The translations under genes were made by a program, and so were the position numbers. From Paracoccaceae bacterium (GTDB taxonomy: Bacteria; Pseudomonadota; Alphaproteobacteria; Rhodobacterales; Rhodobacteraceae), in assembly GCA_006226775.1 (NCBI GenBank), contig SBGD01000083.1, positions 21,586 through 85,585 of the forward strand: DNA of 64,000 nt. Reading direction: 5' to 3'. Numbering within the stretch: position 1 is the stretch's first letter; each line of letters begins with the position of its first letter. The notes beneath the pieces were generated by a model. That model was given only the letters and a program-made list of their open reading frames with translations. It made no database searches and was not told the origin of the DNA. Shown piece after piece: positions 1,836 to 31,215 of the stretch.

Positions 1836-2012
1836 ATGAACTGGCTCGTCCGCATGGCGCTCTGGGCCCGGCGTCCGCCCTCGGCGCGCCGGGTGATACT
1901 GGTTCTCGGCGTGATCGCCCTGTGCCTGGCGCTCTATGCCATCGAGCGCTGGGTCGGCTGGCCCGAGGCGCTGACCGCCGAGCGGTTGCGCTGGGGCGGT
2001 CCGCGGCGGTGA
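1836..2012 (+). CDS. Small single-pass membrane protein downstream of hpt
   Basis: 58 aa protein, too short for the ORF track as its own entry. A basic amphipathic N-terminus (MNWLVRMALWARRPPSARR) is followed by one TM helix (VILVLGVIALCLALYAIERW) and a short tail. A good ribosome-binding site (GGGAGGGC) lies 5-6 nt before the ATG. Position directly behind hpt suggests an operon. Function unknown. I believe similar small proteins follow hpt in other Rhodobacterales, but that is recollection and not shown here. Confidence 0.7.
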   Translation: MNWLVRMALWARRPPSARRVILVLGVIALCLALYAIERWVGWPEALTAERLRWGGPRR

Positions 2013-2142
2013 CTTCGGGGCCGGTGCGGGACATGTGCTTGTGCGCACCGAACCTGGGGTTTTGCGGACCAAGTGTGACGCCACGCACTTTACGGAGCGT
2101 CCTGCCCCCAAGTCTCTCACAAAGATTGCGAAGCGACACCCC

Positions 2143-2173
2143 TTGACCGTTTCGTGACTGGACGCCCTATCTC
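2143..2173 (+). promoter_or_regulatory. CueR/HmrR-type promoter (19-bp spacer) of a decayed copper locus
   Basis: TTGACC and TATCTC are separated by 19 bp. That over-long spacer is the hallmark of promoters untwisted by MerR-family activators such as CueR/HmrR. A weak dyad (CGT...ACG) lies in the spacer. It stands just upstream of the copper-transporter remnant and the broken cueR, as expected for a copA promoter. The dyad is degenerate, so it may no longer function. Confidence 0.5.
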
Positions 2174-2203
2174 CCGGGCCCGACCCGGCACAGCCCCCAG
2201 CCT

Positions 2204-2321
2204 TTGACTGTCGAAATCGACAACATGACCTGCGGTGCCCGATCTGCAGGAGACCCGCGTCAACCTCGCCAATCAGTCCGCGAGGCCCACCGCCGCGGCC
2301 CCGGCCCCGGGAGGCCTCGGC
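2204..2321 (+). pseudogene. Remnant of a copper P-type ATPase HMA domain (copA-like)
   Basis: One frame reads TVEIDNMTCGARS, matching the beta strand and metal-binding loop of a heavy-metal-associated domain (normally MTCxxC, here without the second Cys). About 30 nt on, a different frame reads LQETRVNLANQSAR, matching the later part of the same fold (the VNLA..SAR motif of CopA HMA domains). The two halves are joined out of frame and the rest of the ATPase is absent. Read as the residue of a large deletion between copA and cueR. Family match is by eye only. Confidence 0.5.
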
Positions 2322-2725
2322 ATGTATATCGGCGACGTGGCGAAACGCGCGGAACTGCTGCCCAAGACCATCCGCTCCTACGAGGAGATCGGCCTGATCA
2401 CGCCCCTGCGCGACACCAACGGCCACCGCGCCTTTCGCGACAGCGACCTGCACAGGCTGATCTTTCCGGGCTGATCTTTCCGGGCCGCGCGCGGACCCTG
2501 GGCTTTGCGATCGCGGATTGCCGCGCCCTGCCGGCACTCTGGAAGGACAAGGATCGCGTCTCGGCCGCTGTGCGCCGCATCGCGCGGCAGTATCTGGACG
2601 AGATCGACCGCAAGATCGCCGCCCTGAGCCGGAGGCGCGACACGGCCTCGCCCCTTGTCGCCACCTGCGCGGACGACGACCGGCCCGATTGCCCGATCCT
2701 GACGCAACTCTCGGCCGATGGCTGA
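2322..2725 (+). pseudogene. cueR: Frameshifted MerR-family copper regulator (cueR/hmrR-like)
   Basis: From the ATG at 2322 (GGGAGG upstream) the frame encodes MYIGDVAKRAELLPKTIRSYEEIGL, a MerR-type winged helix, then stops at LIFPG. The next frame continues exactly where the family should: RARTLGFAIADCRALPALWKDKDR, the dimerisation helix, and a C-terminal metal-binding segment CADDDRPDCP typical of CueR/HmrR. The break is a perfect tandem duplication of the 14-mer CTGATCTTTCCGGG; removing one copy restores one continuous ORF of about 130 codons. A sequencing artefact is possible, but the neighbouring copA remnant supports real decay. Confidence 0.8.
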
Positions 2726-2838
2726 GCCGGCGCAGGCAAGCGCGCTTGACAATCCCTAGTCTTTCAGTCAACTTAATTTCGAGACCCAGCCATCCCCTGT
2801 CGGACAGCCCGGTTCCCCCTATCGAAAGGAGTTTGACA

Positions 2839-2982
2839 ATGGCTGGATCCCCGTCCCGATCGCCGGGCGTGACCCTTGTGCCCCCGCCCTGGACCGACGC
2901 GCTTCACAGCGCCCTCGGGGCCTTTCACCCCGCCCATCTCAACCCGGTGACCCTGATCGACTGCCCGGAGCCCCGCCGATGA
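2839..2982 (+). CDS. Small ORF translationally coupled to hemP
   Basis: 47 aa (MAGSPSRSPGVTLVPPPWTD...), with AAAGGAG about 7 nt before the ATG. It ends with an ATGA overlap with hemP, which argues that it is translated. No recognised domain. Upstream there is a TTGACA element (about 2747) followed by an imperfect TGAC...GTCA dyad that could be an iron-responsive operator, but I cannot assign it to Fur, Irr or RirA. Confidence 0.5.
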   Translation: MAGSPSRSPGVTLVPPPWTDALHSALGAFHPAHLNPVTLIDCPEPRR

Positions 2983-3155
2983 ACGCCATTGCCCACCCTC
3001 TCGCGCTTGACCGCGCCAGTGAAGCGACCAGCCCGGATCCTGCCTATGACGCCCGGATGCTGGTGGGGCGCGATGCCACCGCGCGCATCGTGCTGGACAG
3101 CAAGATCTACACCCTGCGCATAACCAGGGCCGGCAAGCTGATCCTCACCAAGTAA
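2979..3155 (+). CDS. hemP: Hemin uptake protein HemP
   Basis: 58 aa protein missed by the ORF track because of its size. The C-terminal half, ARIVLDSKIYTLRITRAGKLILTK, is the diagnostic HemP motif, with the invariant TRxGKLILTK end. HemP is a small cytoplasmic protein linked to heme-uptake operons and, in some proteobacteria, to activation of the heme receptor gene. No heme receptor or ABC transporter lies in this window, so hemP is detached from its usual partners. It overlaps the preceding ORF by ATGA. Confidence 0.85.
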   Translation: MNAIAHPLALDRASEATSPDPAYDARMLVGRDATARIVLDSKIYTLRITRAGKLILTK

Positions 3156-3224
3156 GCCCGCCCGCTGCTGCGGCTTGACCTCGCCGCCCGCCTGCCCTCT
3201 CCTGCGCCGCAGGAGGAGACTGGC

Positions 3225-4220
3225 ATGGAGAGGATCACCGATCTCGGCACCGCCCCCGATGGCAAACCGTTCCGCGGCATCGCCATCGGCGGGCCGGACC
3301 TGTCGGCGCGGGTGCTGACCTTCGGCGCCGCCTTGCAGGATCTGCGGCTGGCCGGCCATGCGCCGCCGCTGGTGCTGGGCTATGCCGAGCCGCGCGGGTA
3401 TTTCGACAATCCGCACAAGCTCGGCGCCGTGGTCGGCCGCTGCGCCAACCGGATCGCCGGCGGGCAGTTCACGCTGGACGGCCGGACCCATAGGCTCGAC
3501 CGCAACGACGGCGGCGTGCAGACCCTGCACGGCGGTGCCGACGGGGTCCAGAACAAGAGCTGGGACCTGGCGGATCACGGCCCCGGCCATGTCAGCCTCG
3601 GGCTGCATCTGCCGGGTGGCCACATGGGCTTTCCCGGCGCGCTGGACCTGCTGTGTACCTACCGCGTGGCAGGTGCCGCGCTGGAGATCGAACTGCAGGC
3701 CCGGACCGATGCGCCGACCTACTGCAACCTCACCAACCACAGTTATTTCACCCTGACCGGCGCGCCGACGACCCGGGGCCACCGGCTGCGGATTGCTGCC
3801 GAGGAGGTGCTGGAGCTCGACGCGCGGATGATCCCCACCGGGCGGCCTGTGCCGGTGGCGGGCACGGGGCTGGACTTCCGCCGCCCCGCCGCGCCGGAGG
3901 TGCCGCTCGATCACAACTTCTGCCTCGCCGAGACCCGGCGCGCGCTGACCCCGGTGGCGGTGCTGGAGGCCGCGGGGCTGAGCATGACGCTTTCGACCAC
4001 CGAGCCGGGGTTGCAGGTCTACGATGGCCGCGCGCTGGACCGCACCGGCCAGGCCGGGCTATGCGGCGGGACACATGGCCCGCACGCCGGCATCGCGCTC
4101 GAGCCCCAGGCCTGGCCCGATGCCCCCAATCAGCCCTGGTCGGCCCAGGCCCTGCTGCGCCCGGGCGAGACCTATCGGCACCTGACCCGGCTGGCATTCT
4201 CGCGCCCCGCCTCAAGCTGA
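3225..4220 (+). CDS. galM: Aldose 1-epimerase (galactose mutarotase family)
   Basis: 331 aa, normal family length. Interconverts the alpha and beta anomers of aldohexoses. Visible motifs are GRCANRIAGGQFTLDG and LHGG near the N-terminus, MGFPGALDL, the catalytic His segment TNHSYFTL, DHNFCL, and the catalytic Glu in ALEPQAWPDAPNQ near the C-terminus. AGGAGGAG lies 8 nt before the ATG. It is a single gene; no other sugar gene is adjacent, so the physiological sugar is not evident. Twin-hairpin repeats follow immediately downstream. Confidence 0.9.
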   Translation: MERITDLGTAPDGKPFRGIAIGGPDLSARVLTFGAALQDLRLAGHAPPLVLGYAEPRGYFDNPHKLGAVVGRCANRIAGGQFTLDGRTHRLDRNDGGVQTLHGGADGVQNKSWDLADHGPGHVSLGLHLPGGHMGFPGALDLLCTYRVAGAALEIELQARTDAPTYCNLTNHSYFTLTGAPTTRGHRLRIAAEEVLELDARMIPTGRPVPVAGTGLDFRRPAAPEVPLDHNFCLAETRRALTPVAVLEAAGLSMTLSTTEPGLQVYDGRALDRTGQAGLCGGTHGPHAGIALEPQAWPDAPNQPWSAQALLRPGETYRHLTRLAFSRPASS

Positions 4221-17014: not shown

Positions 17015-17320
17015 ATGTCGAATATGATGAAGACCTTTGCCGTGGCCGGCGCCGTTGCCGCCGCTCTTGCCGCCCAGACCACCACCGCCAGCGCGCAGGA
17101 AAAGGAAAAATGCTACGGCGTGTCGATGGCCGGCGAAAACGATTGCGCCGCGGGCCCCGGCACCACCTGCGCCGGCACCTCGAAAGTCGATTACCAGGGC
17201 AATGCCTGGACGCTGGTGGACGCCGGCACCTGCACCGAGATCGAGCTTCCCGAGATGGCCGACGGATCGGCGCGCATGGGCTCGCTCGAGCCGCTCGAGC
17301 GCGACCTGCCGGCAAGCTGA
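17015..17320 (+). CDS. bufA1: Bufferin (DUF2282) metallophore precursor BufA1
   Basis: 101 aa precursor of a periplasmic metal-binding RiPP. A Sec signal peptide (cleavage near TTASA-like TTTASA|Q, residue 27) leads into the family core with four Cys: [18 protein letters not shown] and GTC (residues 33, 44, 52, 73). In the bufferin family the core Cys are modified by BufB/BufC, and the mature peptide sequesters copper or zinc. About 25 residues follow the last Cys, ending [20 protein letters not shown] is 8 nt upstream. First gene of bufA-B-C-D. Confidence 0.9.
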
Positions 17321-17371
17321 ACCGGCCCCGGGTGGGCAGCGCTGCCCACCCTCCGCAGGAGGGGACAGCAC

Positions 17372-18253
17372 ATGCTGGATGACAACCGACCGTCTCACGG
17401 CCTGCCCGCCGCGCCGGGCGTGGGCTACAAGCCGCAGCACTACGCCGAGATCATCGCCGATGCCGCGCCGGTGGCCTGGCTCGAGATCCATGCCGAGAAT
17501 TACATGGGCGACGGCGGACGCCCCCTGGCGCAGCTGCGCGCGCTGTCGGAGCGGTTTGCCATCTCGGTGCACGGGGTCGGCCTGTCGATCGGCGGCGAAG
17601 GCCCGCTGGACGCCGGGCACCTGTCGCGGCTGAAACACCTCTGCGACTGGCTGCACCCGGCCAGTTTCTCCGAGCACCTGGCCTGGTCGAGCCATGACAG
17701 CCAGTTTCTCAACGACCTGCTGCCGCTGCCCTATACCGATGCCACCCTGCGGCGCGTCTGCGCTCACATCGACGAGGTGCAGGATGTCACCGGGCGGCAG
17801 ATGCTGCTGGAAAACCCCTCCTCCTACCTGGCCTTTGCCGAGAGCACCTGGGACGAGCCCGCCTTTCTGGACGAGGTCGCGCGGCGCACCGGCTGCGGGT
17901 TGCTGCTGGATGTGAACAATGTCTTCGTCTCGGCCACCAACCTCGGGTTTTCGCCGCAGGCCTATATCGAGGCCTTCCCGCTGGCCCGGGTGGGCGAGAT
18001 CCACCTCGGCGGCCATGACGAGGATGAAGACGATCATGGCGCGCCGCTCTTGGTCGACAGCCATGGGCGCGCGGTGGTCGATCCGGTCTGGGCGCTGCTG
18101 GACCATACGCTGGCGCGGTCCGGGCCGAAGCCGCTCTTGATCGAATGGGACAATGACGTGCCAGGCTGGCCGGTGCTGCGCGCCGAGGCGCGGCGCGCGC
18201 AGGACGCGCTGGCCCGGGTGCCCGCCCGGGTGCCCGCCCGGATACCCGCATGA
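17372..18253 (+). CDS. bufB: Bufferin maturation enzyme BufB (DUF692, MbnB-like)
   Basis: 293 aa TIM-barrel iron enzyme of the DUF692/MNIO family, which includes MbnB of methanobactin synthesis. Likely metal ligands are visible in [45 protein letters not shown] and [13 protein letters not shown]. Family members oxidise cysteine in the precursor peptide. AGGAGGGG lies 8 nt before the ATG. The C-terminus has a [14 protein letters not shown] run caused by a short GTGCCCGCCCGG repeat. It overlaps bufC by ATGA. Confidence 0.92.
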
Positions 18254-18999
18254 CCCGCCAGGCCGAGTTCCGCGGCGCGCTTCTGGACGCGGCGGCGCCG
18301 CGCCCGGCGGGCCTCGTGGATGGCCAGGGCCGACCCGCCGGGCGGCGCTATGACGTCTATCGCAACAATATCGCGACCTCGCTGGGCGAGGCGCTGGCCA
18401 CGGGCTTTCCGGCGGTGGCAAAGCTCCTGGGCGCGGAGAATTTCAAGGCCCTCGCCGCGCTCTACCTGCGCGCCGCGCCGCCCGACAGCCCGCGAATGAT
18501 GCTCTATGGCGCGGGGTTCGGTGACTTCCTCGAGGGTATCGCACAATTGCGGAAATACCCCTATCTCGGCGATGTGGCGCGGCTGGAATACGCCCTGCGC
18601 GAAAGCTATCACGCCGGCGACGCAGCCGCCCTGCCCGCCACGGCGCTGGCCATTGCCCCCGAGGCGCTTCTGGCGGCGCGGCTGGGGCTCGCGCCCTCGG
18701 TGCGGCTGATCCGCTCGCGCCACCCGGTGGTCTCGATCTGGGCCTGGAACATGGCGGGCGGCGCAAAACCCGCGGGCGGCGCCGAGGACGCGCTGATCCT
18801 GCGGGCAGAGTTCGCCCCGGTGCCGCAGGTGCTGGCGCCGGGGGGCCACGAGTTCCTCTCGGCCCTGCGGCGGGGCGAGACGCTGGGCACGGCCTATGAC
18901 GCCGCGCTGGCCCGGGCGGCGGAGTTCGACCTGTCGCCGCTGCTGGCGTGCCTGCTGGCGGGAAATGCACTGACCGAATGGAAGGAAGAAAGCCCATGA
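18250..18999 (+). CDS. bufC: Bufferin maturation partner BufC (DUF2063/HvfC)
   Basis: 249 aa. The N-terminal helical domain reads [11 protein letters not shown]...[30 protein letters not shown], the HvfC/BufC signature (VYRNNv, L..a.P...lvG). The C-terminal half resembles the RRE-like partner domain of MNIO systems. It binds BufB and presents the precursor. ATGA overlaps on both sides show tight coupling in bufBCD. Confidence 0.9.
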
Positions 19000-19559
19000 C
19001 CGCGCTGGTGACCCTGCATGACATAATTTTCGAGGCGGTGGAGCGGAGCTTGAGCGGCTTGATCCCCCTGCTGGCGCGGTTCGTTTTCGCGGCGGTGCTG
19101 CTGGTCTATTTCTGGCACTCGGCGCTGACCAAGCTGGGCGACGGGATCCTCGGCTTTTTGAAACCCTCGACCGGCGCCTATGCGCAGATCTTCCCGAAAG
19201 CGATGGAAGCGGTGAGCTATGACGTGAGCCAGTTGTCGGTGTTTCACTGGCTGGTGGTCGTGGCGGGCACCTGGGCGGAGTTTCTCCTGCCGCTGCTGAT
19301 CGTCATCGGGCTGGCCACGCGGCTGGCGGCGCTGGGGATGATCGGCTTTGTCGTGGTGCAGAGCCTCACCGATCTCTACGGCCATGGCGGCATCGCCCAT
19401 CCCGAAACGCTGGGCGCCTGGTTCGACCGGGTGCCGGATGCGGCGATCCTCGATCAGCGGGCCTTCTGGATCTTCCTGCTGGCGGTGCCGGTGATCCGCG
19501 GCGCGGGTGTGCTGTCGCTGGACCGGATCCTCAGCCGCGCGGTGCTGGGCCGTCCGTAG
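18996..19559 (+). CDS. bufD: DoxX-family membrane protein BufD
   Basis: 187 aa with four TM segments (LIPLLARFVFAAVLLVYFW, LSVFHWLVVVAGTWAEFLLPLLIVIGL, LAALGMIGFVVVQSLTDLYG, FWIFLLAVPVIRGAGVL). The arrangement and the WAEFLLPLLIVIGLATRLAAL stretch are DoxX/SURF4-like. DoxX proteins commonly close DUF2282-DUF692-DUF2063 operons; the role is unknown, perhaps redox supply in the membrane. The start at the ATGA overlap with bufC was chosen over the longer ORF. Confidence 0.88.
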   Translation: MTALVTLHDIIFEAVERSLSGLIPLLARFVFAAVLLVYFWHSALTKLGDGILGFLKPSTGAYAQIFPKAMEAVSYDVSQLSVFHWLVVVAGTWAEFLLPLLIVIGLATRLAALGMIGFVVVQSLTDLYGHGGIAHPETLGAWFDRVPDAAILDQRAFWIFLLAVPVIRGAGVLSLDRILSRAVLGRP

Positions 19560-31170: not shown

Positions 31171-31215
31171 ATCAGCCTTCCGGCCCGGTCAGCCTTCCGG
31201 CCCGGTCAGCCTTCG
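31171..31215. repeat. 18-bp tandem repeat at the CHAT/TPR convergent junction
   Basis: CAGCCTTCCGGCCCGGT is repeated twice and then partially; the last copy contains the stop codon of the TPR gene. Probably slippage-generated. Confidence 0.75.

Follow-up and report, generated by a model that had tools for sequence, protein, structure and literature searches.

Two consecutive reading frames that both resemble the copper regulator CueR, preceded by a promoter of CueR type and by pieces of the copper pump gene copA, raise the question of what kind of locus they form and whether the cell that carries them has lost CueR-controlled copper efflux. In working copies of this gene pair, Cu(I)-bound CueR remodels a promoter with a 19-bp spacer and thereby turns on the CopA pump, as is established for CueRs generally. 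CueR, which has two conserved cysteines for Cu(I) binding, distorts the DNA and so activates copA, cueO, and copZ (PMC7558416), and the copper genes of Rhodobacter sphaeroides are controlled by a CueR homologue according to a work cited in PMC8456105. The segment considered here occupies positions 2143-2725 of a 64-kb stretch of DNA, hereafter the window. Read directly, it shows three components in succession: a promoter of the CueR type, the first HMA domain of copA in two pieces that are out of frame with each other, and a split cueR. It is a decayed copA-cueR locus, and its lesions include deletions, a 14-bp duplication, and point changes. The features of the locus and its downstream neighbour hemP all lie on the plus strand.

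Promoter and copA remnants

The remnant copA promoter (2143..2173) consists of TTGACC at 2143-2148 and TATCTC at 2168-2173, separated by the 19 bp characteristic of CueR-regulated promoters, as the first-pass annotation had claimed, and 24 of its 30 positions match the family consensus TTGACCTTCCAGTGACTGGAAGCCTTATCT. Its operator arms read GTTT/GGAC instead of TTCC/GGAA and do not form an inverted repeat; the GGAA arm, which is GGAC here, is kept in all 16 of the intact relatives' sites.

A Pfam scan of the two copA protein fragments found no HMA domain, and the search was therefore made at the DNA level, with a profile of sixteen intact copA-cueR loci from the same family and with the window excluded. 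This profile recovers the promoter together with the 5′ half of the first HMA domain at 2137-2234 (E 7.7e-6) and, after them as expected, cueR at 2312-2720 (E 3.2e-76), and the 16 intact loci have the same gene order; a decayed copA-cueR locus with this arrangement had already been proposed. Of the two out-of-frame HMA halves in that proposal, the 5′ piece (2204..2234, ending in ..LTVEIDNMTCG), which lacks the start codon region, is recovered by the DNA profile and by alignment, and the 3′ piece (VPDLQETRVNLANQSAR, 2235..2280, in another frame), weak by itself, by alignment to the 16 intact loci. Compared with these loci, the window lacks three parts of copA, namely the region of the start codon, 38 bp within the first HMA domain, and, further on, the remainder of the gene. 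The 38-bp deletion accounts for the two frames and for the absence of the metal motif's second cysteine. Because the distance from the promoter to the start of cueR is 179 bp in the window and 2,476-2,588 bp in the intact loci, copA has lost about 2.4 kb; the junction at which about 2.3-2.4 kb is missing lies at 2281..2321. What remains does not contain the HMA domain with an ATPase core of membrane, actuator, P, and N domains that makes up the P1B-type ATPase CopA (TIGR01511).

The split cueR and its duplication

The N-terminal, helix-turn-helix half of cueR (2322..2474; Pfam MerR 2.6e-11, NCBIfam CueR 1.4e-9) ends in a premature TGA, and the C-terminal half (2471..2725; NCBIfam CueR 7.4e-21, Pfam MerR-DNA-bind 2.8e-11) keeps the C-x7-C metal-site motif, the two cysteines of which (TCADDDRPDCPIL) align with the motif of intact CueR. 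CueR is the best NCBIfam match of both halves. The frameshift between them is caused by an exact tandem duplication of CTGATCTTTCCGGG (2457..2484, copies at 2457-2470 and 2471-2484), which TRF reports at 2455-2485 with a period of 14, 2.2 copies, and 100% match; the TGA lies just past the first copy, and the second copy resumes the CueR reading in the other frame. The break by exact duplication that had been described is therefore real in this sequence. No other frame change occurs in cueR, which otherwise reads on, and the duplication was not found in the aligned intact cueR genes. Exact tandem duplications with a period of at least 10 number only three in the 64-kb window, the 14-bp unit among them, and ten Markov shuffles yielded none with a period of 14 or more. 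GGC flanks the unit at either end, consistent with an origin by slippage.

The two halves, which lie in different frames, score 38.1 and 74.5 bits and both fall short of the curated cut-off for CueR (TIGR02044, 147.4 bits), and the split cueR is a decayed CueR homologue, not a functional member of TIGR02044. When invariant columns are defined on 23 intact CueRs, the remnant breaks four of the 43 invariant and nine of the 59 near-invariant columns, including Y19S, L49P, P13L, and Y35H. Other members of the family break none or one of the invariant and at most four of the near-invariant columns, with the exception of one genome (G007; one and seven), and a genome from outside the family (G037) breaks four and 11, respectively. 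The branch of the remnant is by far the longest in the CueR tree (1.87 versus a median of 0.53). These radical changes mean that the duplication is not the only lesion of cueR; within the locus it is one among many, and the earlier list of lesions, which rightly contained the duplication frameshift, had missed the loss of most of copA, the loss of its start region, and the damage to the operator arms. A scan of genome_contigs with the N-terminal half of cueR gave a single match, of actinobacterial MerR type.

An intact copy in the same genome

With the pair degenerate, about 2.4 kb of copA missing, and cueR frameshifted, CueR-controlled copper efflux is lost at this site, in agreement with the first-pass annotation, which had also suggested another copA elsewhere. 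A search of the genome found one: contig C57 carries an intact cluster of copA, cueR, copZ, and a multicopper oxidase gene. The C57 CopA is an intact protein of 835 aa with two HMA domains, and the C57 CueR (146 aa) scores above the NCBIfam curated cut-off. The two proteins are 83-88% identical to the copies in two congeners, cueR alone 86.7-88%. Since both genes are present on C57, loss at the window site does not amount to loss of CueR-controlled efflux in the cell, and the segment is an ordinary pseudogene locus.

Compensation by a bufferin operon, which had been put forward as well, is not needed. The window does contain a complete bufferin-type operon at 17017-19559, with genes for a DUF2282 precursor, an MNIO enzyme (MbnB_TglH_ChrH), a DUF2063 protein, and DoxX. 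Bufferin clusters comprise a bufferin precursor (DUF2282 in the Buf1 type), an MNIO enzyme, DUF2063, and DoxX (PMC12452194), and all four components are found here at about 17.0-19.6 kb. The end of the MNIO gene carries an exact in-frame tandem duplication of a 12-bp unit (18212-18241), and another, of a 17-bp unit (TCAGCCTTCCGGCCCGG), is located at 31172-31214.

hemP and the history of the locus

Downstream of the remnant lies an intact hemP (2979..3155; Pfam hemP 4.8e-13), which serves as a synteny anchor. Comparison with relatives, which had been recommended as a check, places decayed and intact versions of the locus beside this gene. A congener (G001) has a cueR remnant in the same place upstream of hemP (L054 7342-7513, E 4.5e-17). 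It is more eroded than that in the window, with about 170 bp left, no traces of copA, and a dipeptide ABC transporter as the upstream neighbour. This remnant is 57.4% identical to the window remnant and up to 57.0% to other CueRs, so that a common origin of the two rests mainly on position. Another genus of the family (G008) has intact copA and cueR followed by hemP (L133 4156-7570) in the order and strand of the window, with hemP within about 0.4 kb of cueR, but here a cytochrome c′ gene precedes the pair and the upstream flank is unrelated to the hpt of the window. In three genomes (G034, G029, and G070), copA-cueR and hemP are about 5 kb apart. No cueR trace was found upstream of hemP in the congeners G002 and G003, where Fnr-type regulator-like and hemN-like genes (judged by eye; L055 and L056) occupy this position.

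The family conserves the hpt gene that lies upstream of the window locus. The idea that hpt and copA were neighbours ancestrally was rejected, because none of 20 relatives has copA or cueR beside hpt, and the hpt junction is therefore private to this genome among those examined. From the eroded remnant in the congener and the intact copA-cueR-hemP of the other genus, it follows that a hemP-linked copy has been decaying within the genus; the simplest history adds a separate rearrangement that brought hpt next to it in this genome.

The leader that precedes hemP (2733-2982; TTGACA..TCAACT..CCCAGCCATCC..GGACAGCCCGG) shows good conservation within the genus and partial conservation in G008, and a small ORF after it overlaps the start of hemP. 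These may represent a regulated leader with a coupled small protein; Rfam over 2000-3300 gave nothing credible, and the leader has no match there.

Taken together, the segment is almost certainly a pseudogenised version of the standard copA-cueR operon of Alphaproteobacteria, a hemP-linked second copy redundant with that on C57 and eroding within the genus. The lesions, the order of the elements, the intact paralogue, and the remnant in the sister species are observed; we infer that redundancy caused the decay, that slippage produced the duplication, and that a single ancestral copy was shared. The copy upstream of hemP would have become redundant with the intact pair on C57 and then have lost about 2.3-2.4 kb of copA, the start region, and the symmetry of the operator, and its cueR would have gained a slippage duplication between GGC microhomologies in addition to missense changes.

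Alternative explanations

A single frame change and preserved metal-site cysteines could mean that the decay of cueR is recent, or else that the duplication arose in sequencing or assembly and cueR is in fact intact, an orphan regulator that has outlived copA. The latter is unlikely: with or without the duplication, relaxed constraint is indicated by the radical substitutions at positions conserved in CueR, by the broken operator, and by the missing pump, and an exact 14-bp tandem insertion is, to our knowledge, not a typical short-read error. Both halves keep long open frames, which would fit expression of the split cueR as one protein via ribosomal frameshifting, or a role of the truncated N-terminal half in DNA binding and regulation, possibly at hemP. 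However, reading by eye reveals no slippery heptamer at TTTCCGGGCTGA, the N-terminal half has neither the dimerisation helix nor the metal site, conserved residues are lost, and the congener remnant is even more eroded, so that such expression is scarcely credible.

Alternatively, the fragment might have arisen recently as a broken duplicate of the locus on C57, with which it shares gene order and 70% DNA identity in cueR. In the CueR tree, however, C57 falls among its congener orthologues, and the remnant is placed with another genus (G009; 94/76 support, on a long branch), to which it is 62% identical versus 57% to C57. The remnant is therefore not a recent copy of C57, and a recent duplication is very improbable. 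It is more doubtful still that the copA-cueR-hemP linkage is a copper/heme-iron regulatory connection of the family that this genus has given up, while the CueR-type promoter left behind still acts on hemP. The preferred reading, decay of an old and redundant hemP-linked copy, represents ordinary gene decay.

Comparison with known systems

The locus leaves the understanding of copper homeostasis unchanged. For annotation, the two split frames of cueR should not be counted as two genes, and the case offers a redundant metal-resistance operon at mid-decay, together with a paralogue kept intact elsewhere in the genome, a more eroded remnant in a sister species, and a syntenic intact version in another genus. 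With the CueR-regulated copA-cueR operon of Alphaproteobacteria (CopA, TIGR01511; CueR, TIGR02044), the window remnant has in common the promoter type with its 19-bp spacer, the order of copA and then cueR, and a CueR with C-x7-C. It differs in that the operator arms are mutated, copA is reduced to two HMA pieces, and cueR is frameshifted, and the locus is not functional.
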